DNA of 32,318 nucleotides, from the NCBI RefSeq assembly GCF_913058315.1, contig NZ_CAJXQY010000042.1, forward strand, positions 1 through 32,318, given 5' to 3'. Both the position numbers and the translations under genes were made by a program. Origin of the DNA: an uncultured Alteromonas sp. (GTDB taxonomy: Bacteria; Pseudomonadota; Gammaproteobacteria; Enterobacterales; Alteromonadaceae). The notes beneath the pieces are model-generated. The model saw nothing but the letters and a program-made list of their open reading frames with translations, was not told the DNA's origin and did no database searches. Positions 20,987 through 23,611 of the stretch are shown here, in pieces; position 1 is the stretch's first letter, and each line of letters opens with the position of its first letter.

Positions 20987-21508
20987 TTAAGGGCGAACAG
21001 CGGTCACTTCAATTTCTACCAGGTAGTTAGGGTTGGCCAGGCCTGCCACCTGAAAAGCCGAACGGGAAGGTAGATTAGGCTGTTCTTCAGTACCGAAAAA
21101 CTGTTTATAACCACGCATAAAACCAGCGAAGTCCATTTTACCTTCCATCGCCGGATCGCCTACTAAAAACACCTGCATTTTCATTACATCACCCATGGTC
21201 AGATCCAGGCTTTTCAGATTTTCTTCAATGCGGTTGAGCACACTAACGGTTTGCATTTCAGTATCACCATAGGCTTCCATACTGCCCTTAGGCGCATCCG
21301 GGTTGCTGACCCCAGGCACTGAACCACTTAAAAAGACGATGGTGCTGGTAGCCGGCACTTCCGAAGCGCGCAGGATCGGGAAGTCTGACCCAATCAAACC
21401 ATGGCGAATAACCGTTTCCTTGGCCGGCGAAGTGGCTTCTGCGTCATTACATCCGGTGGTGGCAAATACTGCACTTAGCAGCAGTGGAGCAAGGAATAAT
21501 TTTTTCAT
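20987..21508 (-). CDS. Exported RidA-family (YjgF/YER057c) protein, probable lipoprotein
   Basis: RidA-family proteins are trimeric enamine/imine deaminases that hydrolyse reactive 2-imino or enamine intermediates to keto compounds plus ammonia. The 173-residue protein has a signal peptide ending ATTGC (Cys20), a plausible but non-ideal lipobox; Asn at the next position would direct an outer-membrane lipoprotein. The Rid domain follows (about 35-172), with VFLSGSVPG, the central helix QTVSVLNRIEENLKSL and the C-terminal PSRSAFQVAGL, whose Arg149 corresponds to the catalytic Arg105 of E. coli RidA, then VEIEVTAV. Cytoplasmic RidA has no signal peptide, so export is unusual. It is the third gene of the amine oxidase operon, 27 bases after the cytochrome c gene. 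Confidence 0.85.
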   Translation of the reverse strand: MKKLFLAPLLLSAVFATTGCNDAEATSPAKETVIRHGLIGSDFPILRASEVPATSTIVFLSGSVPGVSNPDAPKGSMEAYGDTEMQTVSVLNRIEENLKSLDLTMGDVMKMQVFLVGDPAMEGKMDFAGFMRGYKQFFGTEEQPNLPSRSAFQVAGLANPNYLVEIEVTAVRP

Positions 21509-21535
21509 GTTGTGTTCCTGTATTCTGGTTAGTGT

Positions 21536-21934
21536 TTATCGTTGTGCAATGGTTTTAACGTCATCGGCATCGACCACGTCGGTAAAATGATTACCAAAAT
21601 GGCTGCGGGTGTAATTCACCACTTCAGCAATTTGTTCATCAGACAGGTATTGTTTGAGCGGGGGCATGCCGCCCATGCCGTTGCTGACCATGTATATTAC
21701 ATAAGCGCCTGCGGCCAGTTTGGGATTTTTTGCCAGCGCCGGATACATGCCTGCGCCTTTGGCGCCCTCGGCGTTAGTCATATGACAGCCCTGGCAAATG
21801 GCATGATAAAGGGCTTCTCCGGTCACTTCCTCAAAGTTGGCACCTTCGGAAAACCCGGCGTCATCGGTTGCATACAAGCAAGTACTTACCAACAGCATAG
21901 AACCTGTAATTAAAAACTTTAACGTTTTATTCAT
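21536..21934 (-). CDS. Small secreted c-type cytochrome
   Basis: The 132-residue protein has a cleavable signal peptide (about residues 1-22, ending LYA) and one covalent haem site CQGCH (47-51). The distal ligand is probably Met90 in MGGMPPLKQYLSDEQIAEVV, the usual class I cytochrome c ending. It should be a periplasmic mono-haem electron carrier. It lies 18 bases after a Tat-type flavin oxidase and 27 bases before a RidA-family gene, which suggests it accepts electrons from the flavoenzyme and passes them to a terminal oxidase. Flavin amine dehydrogenases that use cytochrome c, such as NicA2 with CycN in Pseudomonas, are the precedent. Confidence 0.92.
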   Translation of the reverse strand: MNKTLKFLITGSMLLVSTCLYATDDAGFSEGANFEEVTGEALYHAICQGCHMTNAEGAKGAGMYPALAKNPKLAAGAYVIYMVSNGMGGMPPLKQYLSDEQIAEVVNYTRSHFGNHFTDVVDADDVKTIAQR

Positions 21935-21952
21935 GAATGCATCCTCAAGTTA

Positions 21953-23536
21953 TTAATCCACTGTACTCAGGGCTTTCTGGTGGAGTCGTTTAATCGCGTC
22001 GTGGGCCGAAGAGATAGCGCCCTCCTGCCAGGCTGGTAAGTTAGAGGCGTGCTCACCCGCCAGCACCAGACGCCCGTCAACCTGACAAAGGTTTTCATAA
22101 TGCTCTGCACGCTTTTCTTCCGTCCAAAGGCCATAGCAGCCCTGAGTCCAGGGCACACGGTGCCAGCCTACAGAGATACCGTTATCAAACTCCTCGGCAT
22201 ACTGGGGATGAATTTGCTTACCGTATTCCACCGCTTTCTTCACCCGCTCCTGGGGAGTCAGAGAAGTAAATTCAAAGGCGTTAGCGCCCCACACATAAGC
22301 ACCGAGTAACACACCTTTGCCTTTGTCACAGAATTTGGTGCTGGGGTAACTGATATTCGTAATCGGCAAGTTGGTATAGCTCACGCCACCATAAATAGCT
22401 TCGTCCTGCTCCCAGAACCGACGTTTGAACTCCAGACCTACTTTTACCGACGCAGCATAAGGCAGAGAACGGATAGCAGCCTGCATGCCACTGCTGGTCT
22501 GAACCGGAATTTGACTAAGAATAGATAACGGAATAGAACATACACACCAGTCAGCCTGGGCGGTTTTTGCGACGCCCTGCTGTTCGTAGCTAACCGTTAC
22601 ACCGGTGTCACTTTGGTCAATTTTGGTTACTTTGGCGCTGTATTCAATCAAGTCGCCCACGCGCTTTTCAAACGCTTTGGCGATATTATCCATTCCCCCC
22701 ACCGGCTGAAAGATACTGCTTTGGAACTCTATGTCCTGGCCGTTGACTATGTATTTCCAAAGCTCAGACTGAATCAACGCGCTTTGATCGAACAGTTCAC
22801 TGGGCTCCGGCTTGGGTGACAAACCGCCGCCTGGCGGAATGGCAAAACCGCGTCGTAAACTCACCTCATAAGACTTCTTATAATCGCCCTTGTCGGTTAA
22901 TGCGCCCCAGTGGCGCAGCGATTCAAAGAGTTTTTCCCGGTCTTCCAGAGTAAGGGCTTCATCCAACGCGTTTTGATTTAACGCTTTACCCAACAGCTCC
23001 GCGGCATAACCCTGATAATCAGCCTGAACTTCCCGATAACGCTGAGGCTTTCCGCCAAACGCTTTGGTCGAATGGACCATGGCGTTGTAGTTCACCTGAA
23101 TAAAGGGTTCGATAGCAATATTGAATTCATTGATGTAAGACATCACATGGTGATGGTGGTAGGGCACACGCCAGGGGCCAGGGTTAATATAATTGCCTTC
23201 AGCAAACTGGCATTGCTGAGTGACTCCGCCCAGCTCGGTGTAGGTATCACCACCGCGTAATGTCCAGCAGCGCCCGCCGGCGCGGGCATTAAATTCTAAA
23301 ATCTTAACTTTATAACCCGCTTTTCTTAGCTCGTAGGCGGAAGTCATACCAGCCAGCCCGGCCCCCAGTACCAATACCGTTGCGCCTTTTTTGGCCCCAC
23401 CAAGATTCAGCGTACCCGGGTGTGAAGACTCAGCCGCAAAACCCAATGAGGTCATAGCCTGATACATAGCACTGGCGCCAGCCGTTTTACCTATCCAGCC
23501 CAACAAGGCCCGGCGGCTCATAGTGTGATTATTCAA
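21953..23536 (-). CDS. Tat-exported flavin monoamine/L-amino-acid oxidase-like enzyme
   Basis: The enzyme oxidises an amine or amino acid to an imine using FAD. The N-terminus has a twin-arginine signal (MSRRALLGWIGKTAGASAMY), implying folded export to the periplasm. The FAD-binding Rossmann motif is VLVLGAGLAGMTSAYELRKA, followed by the EFNARAGGRC segment. A segment NYINPGPWRVPYHH resembles the GPxRIPxHH block of L-amino-acid oxidases, where a basic residue binds the carboxylate. The C-terminal FAD motif is LAGEHASNLPAWQEGAISSA. I place the start at the TTG at 23536 because AAGGGG lies eight bases upstream; the ATG at 23521 and a GTG at 23611 are alternatives without clear ribosome binding sites. 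It is the first gene of a three-gene operon with cytochrome c and RidA. Confidence 0.88.
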   Translation of the reverse strand: MNNHTMSRRALLGWIGKTAGASAMYQAMTSLGFAAESSHPGTLNLGGAKKGATVLVLGAGLAGMTSAYELRKAGYKVKILEFNARAGGRCWTLRGGDTYTELGGVTQQCQFAEGNYINPGPWRVPYHHHHVMSYINEFNIAIEPFIQVNYNAMVHSTKAFGGKPQRYREVQADYQGYAAELLGKALNQNALDEALTLEDREKLFESLRHWGALTDKGDYKKSYEVSLRRGFAIPPGGGLSPKPEPSELFDQSALIQSELWKYIVNGQDIEFQSSIFQPVGGMDNIAKAFEKRVGDLIEYSAKVTKIDQSDTGVTVSYEQQGVAKTAQADWCVCSIPLSILSQIPVQTSSGMQAAIRSLPYAASVKVGLEFKRRFWEQDEAIYGGVSYTNLPITNISYPSTKFCDKGKGVLLGAYVWGANAFEFTSLTPQERVKKAVEYGKQIHPQYAEEFDNGISVGWHRVPWTQGCYGLWTEEKRAEHYENLCQVDGRLVLAGEHASNLPAWQEGAISSAHDAIKRLHQKALSTVD

Positions 23537-23611
23537 CGAAAAAACCCCTTGTGTTGAAGTAAAAACTGAACGATGCGCAAGTGGATGCACCGCCGGTGCC
23601 AGCTTGTTCAC

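Follow-up and report, generated by a model that had tools for sequence, protein, structure and literature searches.

What do three adjacent genes in a contig of an uncultured Alteromonas sp. (NZ_CAJXQY010000042.1) make together, to which acceptor would their flavoenzyme pass its electrons, and where would the resulting imine be removed? The window, that is the whole stretch of 32,318 nucleotides that was analysed and to which the coordinates refer, holds these genes on the minus strand at 20987..23536. They encode a flavin amine oxidoreductase with a signal for twin-arginine translocation (Tat), a secreted single-haem cytochrome c and a signal-bearing protein of the Rid family; Pfam profiles (Table 1) bore out the families named in the first-pass annotation, and the signals, like all export signals reported here, were assigned by eye and by hydropathy. 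The genes are co-directional, with gaps of 18 bases between flavoenzyme and cytochrome and of 27 bases between cytochrome and Rid, as that annotation had placed them. We consider it probable, on the predicted proteins and their relatives, that this operon encodes a periplasmic L-amino-acid dehydrogenase system that includes a cytochrome and an imine deaminase of its own. The first-pass annotation knew of no description of the three-part set; in fact, the lao-cccA-ridA cluster (GDI2456-2454) of Gluconacetobacter diazotrophicus PAL5, in which the L-amino acid oxidase (LAAO) has a Tat signal, was already described in 2016 (Rodrigues et al. 2016, PMC5053998).

Families and signals of the three proteins

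The closest solved relative of the flavoenzyme is an LAAO, 2jae (E 3.4e-91, aligned over residues 46-522 of 527), which we take to come from Rhodococcus opacus, and the next are ancestral tetrapod LAAOs (E 3.4e-42). Among the best 60 of 100 matches, chains named amine oxidases appeared at 3.3e-13 or weaker, the exception being 5ts5, which carries the bare name "Amine oxidase" (E 1.3e-28). Of 96 aligned rows, among them that of the window, all 96 keep Arg123 and 93 keep Tyr414, the other 3 having Phe; we assume that these two residues are the substrate-carboxylate-binding pair of LAAOs. The far stronger LAAO matches and the conserved Arg/Tyr pair point to L-amino acids, and not to amines at large, as the likely substrates; this keeps one half of the amine or amino-acid substrate proposed at first and drops the other. 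The Tat motif reads SRRALLGW, with the two arginines at residues 8-9, and the hydropathy of the stretch is modest (0.64).

The cytochrome contains one CXXCH motif (CQGCH, residues 47-51). Among solved structures, it most resembles the cytochrome subunits of fructose and alcohol dehydrogenases (lowest E 3.9e-10), which accept electrons from periplasm-facing dehydrogenases. In distant operons, the same middle position is occupied by a two-haem cytochrome, with frames of 206-220 aa (L006:866-1483, L056:3054-3674 and L057:831-1490, the L numbers being our handles for loci). Besides the downstream single-haem cytochrome, L047 and L051 each have, 5' of the LAAO gene, a frame that contains CXXCH three times.

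The signal of the Rid protein, MKKLFLAPLLLSAVFATTGC, appeared lipobox-like by eye; this lipoprotein-like type is found in the window's group, and an ordinary cleavable type in most others. The first assignment of this protein to RidA did not hold, as the RidA-subfamily model TIGR00004 gave 40.2 bits, below the curated cut-off of 106.25, and the nearest solved relatives were PSPTO_3006 (9bka; E 1.8e-38) and PFL_1385 (9bkc; E 1.9e-32). By these matches, it is Rid3-like and falls outside the RidA subfamily. Both PFL_1385 and PSPTO_3006 have been assigned to Rid3, and in vitro they deaminate the imines that snake LAAO makes from Leu, Gln, Phe, Met and His (PMC5619798). The catalytic-type Arg of the window protein lies within PSRSAFQV, and the catalytic Arg motif was recovered by pattern in 82 of 85 Rid rows (two of the 85 represent one place) and by eye in the other 3. 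Rid genes that directly adjoin LAAO genes (L110, L068) match PFL_1385 (E 4.2e-96) and PSPTO_3006 (E 1.4e-84), so that these two Rid3 proteins gain a concrete candidate partner enzyme. The PSPTO_3006-like proteins have no signal, and no matching cytochrome gene adjoins the PFL_1385-type or PSPTO_3006-type Rid genes in the loci examined. More generally, clustering of flavin amine oxidase genes with RidA genes, and in some cases with Rid3 genes, had been noted earlier (Niehaus 2015, PMC4433059).

Conservation of the trio and matched signals

The co-occurrence of the three genes, for which the first-pass annotation had proposed a search, was indeed found. Within the window's genus, 5 of 36 genomes, counting that of the window, contained the flavoenzyme (match threshold E 1e-20 or better). 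When 32 loci around flavoenzyme homologues of the genome collection were compared, the cytochrome adjoined in 29, Rid was present in 18 and the full trio in 16, one of which (L017) has a split flavoenzyme frame. A co-occurrence in 16 of 32 loci indicates that the trio is more than chance. The three loci devoid of the cytochrome are L029, whose contig stops 183 bases past the gene, and L034 and L035 (Neisseriaceae).

An even sample of 398 genomes of Pseudomonadota (flavoenzyme cut-off E 1e-40; Rid sought within 1.5 kb) gave the flavoenzyme in 27 genomes, at 31 places. Where flavoenzyme identity was at least 41%, a cytochrome c gene was adjacent at all places (20 of 20) and Rid was found at 14 of the 20. 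The 11 more distant places had a two-haem cytochrome in 3 cases and no cytochrome in 8, with Rid at 8 of the 11; here L055, L060 and L065 keep a Tat LAAO and a signal-bearing Rid, with no matching cytochrome nearby. Four of 101 plasmid records were also examined. In Microvirga ossetica and Sulfitobacter indolifex the trio is annotated on plasmids, and the plasmids of Deinococcus radiodurans and Rhizobium tropici have LAAO and cytochrome with no annotated Rid adjoining in a gene table that is incomplete. In genome G210 (L063, L119:4915-7967), the order of the trio is reversed (Rid, cytochrome, LAAO). This reversed trio adjoins a second LAAO-cytochrome pair on the opposite strand.

An N-terminal signal was found on Rid at 20 of the 22 Rid-bearing places of the 398-genome sample (those of L035, L042, L053 and L065 were read by eye). 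The two places lacking it (L061 and L062) are from a single genus, and in both the hydrophobic Tat stretch of the flavoenzyme is interrupted by charged residues. A scan of 199 genomes of this genus gave the flavoenzyme in 50 genomes, at 51 places (52 match rows, two of which are halves of one split gene). A degraded Tat signal accompanied a Rid with no signal at 24 places, an intact-looking Tat signal accompanied a Rid signal at 26, and there were no mixed cases (0 of 50); Rid was absent at one of the 51 places. The split between intact and degraded Tat signals rests partly on reading the sequences, because the charge counts overlap at 4. L093 and L117 are one place (genome G560), at which Rid has no signal, and the degraded-Tat place L077 has a stop codon within the gene; taken with L017, these are the cases where the LAAO gene is broken by a frame split or an internal stop. 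A cytochrome matching that of the window was found in this genus only at L116, and at L072, L076, L077 and L085 a CXXCH-containing frame that does not match it lies within 1.5 kb of the LAAO gene.

The LAAO tree was built on 96 rows, after removal of duplicates, broken genes (with the duplicates, these are L001-L004, L017, L045, L063, L066, L090, L093 and L117), of L056, which the search pattern had missed, and of 13 near-copies. On this tree the paired signal change is a single change. As far as can be read from sequence, the matched signals suit a Rid protein that has to sit where the imine forms, and are no proof of it. They supply a simple comparative argument for local Rid action on imines. 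No report of matched LAAO and Rid signals was found among the papers listed from the open-licence PubMed Central literature, and we regard them as one modest new point.

Proposed mechanism and its rivals

In the system that we propose, the flavin adenine dinucleotide (FAD) enzyme would fold in the cytoplasm, leave it through the Tat pathway and turn L-amino acids into 2-imino acids. Its reduced flavin would give up two electrons singly to the cytochrome c of the operon, and the latter would pass them to a terminal oxidase, while the Rid3-like protein would hydrolyse the imino acid at its site of formation to a 2-oxo acid and ammonium. TatC and CcmF have matches in the window's genome, and COX1 has three, of which one is full-length and two are partial; the genome is therefore equipped for Tat export and for the maturation of cytochromes, and it has a terminal electron sink. 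That the cytochrome is the true acceptor, which substrates are used and that the proteins are physically exported are inferences for the window organism. With somewhat better than even confidence, we further propose that LAAO-type enzymes are an additional cytochrome c-dependent lineage outside the set centred on NicA2, with a dedicated, co-localised Rid3 imine deaminase. In this wider proposal, the clean-up would have to take place in the compartment where the imine is formed, because Rid stays in the cytoplasm when the flavoenzyme does. Should the electrons really go to the cytochrome, a widespread group to which databases give the label "monoamine oxidase" would consist of respiratory dehydrogenases, yielding energy rather than peroxide.

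Several observations weigh against such a dehydrogenase system. The solved relatives of the flavoenzyme are named oxidases, and we are aware of no kinetic evidence on its LAAO clade, for which reason the term dehydrogenase remains a prediction; among the papers listed from the open-licence PubMed Central literature, none was found that measures the passage of electrons from such an LAAO to its cytochrome. The pathway put forward in the first-pass annotation, with oxidation, transfer to the cytochrome and imine hydrolysis all outside the cytoplasm, is retained as the best reading on the basis of gene conservation and of papers on relatives, its dehydrogenase step being a predicted one. Lys365 is kept in 96 of 96 aligned rows and does not discriminate between the two kinds of enzyme, because both dehydrogenases and oxidases have its counterpart (Akram et al. 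2025, PMC12224317). This residue and others near the flavin were accordingly rejected as a marker of oxidase versus dehydrogenase, sequence not being diagnostic according to the same paper. Rid is not obligatory in close relatives, since it was missing within 1.5 kb at 6 of the 20 places. Moreover, exported Rid proteins, as judged from sequence, also occur away from LAAO operons: of the 5 Rid-family proteins in the window's genome, 3 have a signal by eye, two of them dependent on a GTG start, and no flavoenzyme gene was found in the short stretches examined around L121 and L122 (Table 1). An exported Rid was for this reason rejected as a unique feature. The matched signals count as one evolutionary event and not many, since they go back to a single change on the tree. 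In the genus scanned across 199 genomes, 25 of the 51 places keep a Tat signal and an exported Rid and have no matching cytochrome gene close by. Finally, L034 and L035 keep a Tat signal and a signal-bearing Rid, and no CXXCH frame was found in the DNA examined there; these two loci lend themselves to a test of a version that uses O2.

The cytochrome-less places bear directly on the possibility that the enzyme is a periplasmic LAAO with O2 as its acceptor and H2O2 as its product, the cytochrome being a peroxide sink or having some other role. The names of the closest solved relatives speak for it, as do L055, L060 and L065 together with the 25 places just mentioned, and in the study of NicA2 relatives by Akram et al. 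(2025, PMC12224317) most of the assayed Tat enzymes with no adjacent cytochrome c gene (CytC) were quick to react with O2, one being an exception. However, the same study reports that a Tat signal combined with an adjacent CytC predicts cytochrome-using dehydrogenases, and a cytochrome c gene is adjacent at all 20 places of the sample where identity is 41% or more. Besides, ccm mutants of G. diazotrophicus produced about 5% of the wild-type amount of indole-3-acetic acid (IAA), according to earlier work cited in PMC5053998. On balance, we hold an O2-using enzyme to be unlikely.

Superfamily, Tat signal and adjacent cytochrome are also shared with NicA2 and Pnao, and the flavoenzyme might then be a periplasmic amine dehydrogenase of their type rather than an amino-acid enzyme. 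Such an assignment appears very improbable with respect to the LAAO matches, which lie far above those to amine oxidases, 5ts5 included, and to the conserved Arg/Tyr pair; moreover, tryptophan went unused after disruption of the G. diazotrophicus counterpart (PMC5053998). A NicA2-like amine enzyme was therefore set aside, the LAAO matches being far stronger. There is hardly any likelihood that the three genes are mere neighbours and that Rid serves another exported enzyme, although the 6 close relatives with no Rid within 1.5 kb and the two further signal-bearing Rid proteins of the genome would agree with it. In fact, the trio recurs in distant Pseudomonadota, on two plasmids and once in reversed order, and the transcripts of all three genes were lowered together in one Tn5 mutant of G. 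diazotrophicus lao (PMC5053998).

The locus in its genome and among known systems

The flavoenzyme frame can be extended to a GTG at 23611 (552 aa), and this longer version was set aside in favour of the TTG start. The latter is better supported, because L012 has an ATG aligned with it, L003 and L016 have ATT in place of the next internal ATG, and AAGGGG stands just 5' of it. The six neighbouring genes have other functions by Pfam profiles (RraA-like, CPBP protease, esterase, ACT, dbpA and pyrC). They were matched in 10 of the 32 loci of the genome collection, all of Alteromonadaceae type (CPBP is missing from L013 and the esterase from L015), and had no match in the remaining 22, some of which have short flanks. 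Given this restriction, the neighbours do not look part of the module.

Table 1. Positions of the operon genes in the window and of related features in the same genome
Feature	Position	Strand	Evidence
Flavin amine oxidoreductase, L-amino-acid-oxidase type, Tat signal, 527 aa	21953..23536	-	PF01593 (Amino_oxidase), E 2e-63
Single-haem class I cytochrome c, Sec-like signal, 132 aa	21536..21934	-	PF13442 (Cytochrome_CBB3), E 3.8e-13
Rid3-like protein (predicted imine deaminase), lipoprotein-like signal, 173 aa	20987..21508	-	PF01042 (Ribonuc_L-PSP), E 1.4e-15
Flavoenzyme start: TTG at 23536, next in-frame ATG at 23521-23519	23519..23536	-	Aligned start codons of ten related loci
Signal-bearing Rid-family proteins elsewhere in the genome	L121 (G000:C164:760-1098), L122 (G000:C155:4381-4695)		GTG starts; one lipoprotein-like

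As to known systems, the nearest solved structure to the window flavoenzyme, 2jae, is an enzyme for which we know of no cytochrome partner. With NicA2 and Pnao the window flavoenzyme has in common the Tat signal and the adjoining gene of a cytochrome c with a Sec signal. The set to which these two belong was gathered by BLAST with NicA2 and comprises over 100 predicted enzymes, representatives of which were assayed; neither "Rid" nor "L-amino acid oxidase" occurs in the main text of that paper (PMC12224317). In Chlamydomonas, a periplasmic LAO1 is paired with LAO2/RIDA and H2O2 is formed, in an account that also cites the G. diazotrophicus cluster (PMC10805672). The window similarly pairs a predicted periplasmic LAAO with a Rid protein; unlike it, LAO1 is eukaryotic and makes H2O2, and the available part of the account mentions no cytochrome partner.

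Among the papers found in the open-licence PubMed Central literature that bring together LAAO, RidA and cytochrome c, only that on lao-cccA-ridA treats a bacterial operon, as judged by titles and abstract openings. With two Tn5 insertions in G. diazotrophicus lao, IAA was not detected and tryptophan was left in the medium; the cluster is reported to be conserved in Caulobacter crescentus and Xanthomonas, and it was hypothesized that the cytochrome c and RidA assist the LAAO (PMC5053998). That cluster differs from the window's in belonging to an alphaproteobacterium and in being tied to IAA formation from tryptophan, and the two are likened here by description. The names that turned up among the best 120 matches listed in our protein search included Acidisoma, a member of the Acetobacterales, and Roseomonas, presumably of the same order, and did not include Gluconacetobacter. 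As in lao-cccA-ridA, the window has the same three families adjacent in one cluster and a Tat signal on the LAAO, and its operon is a well-supported further example of a described system, not a new one.

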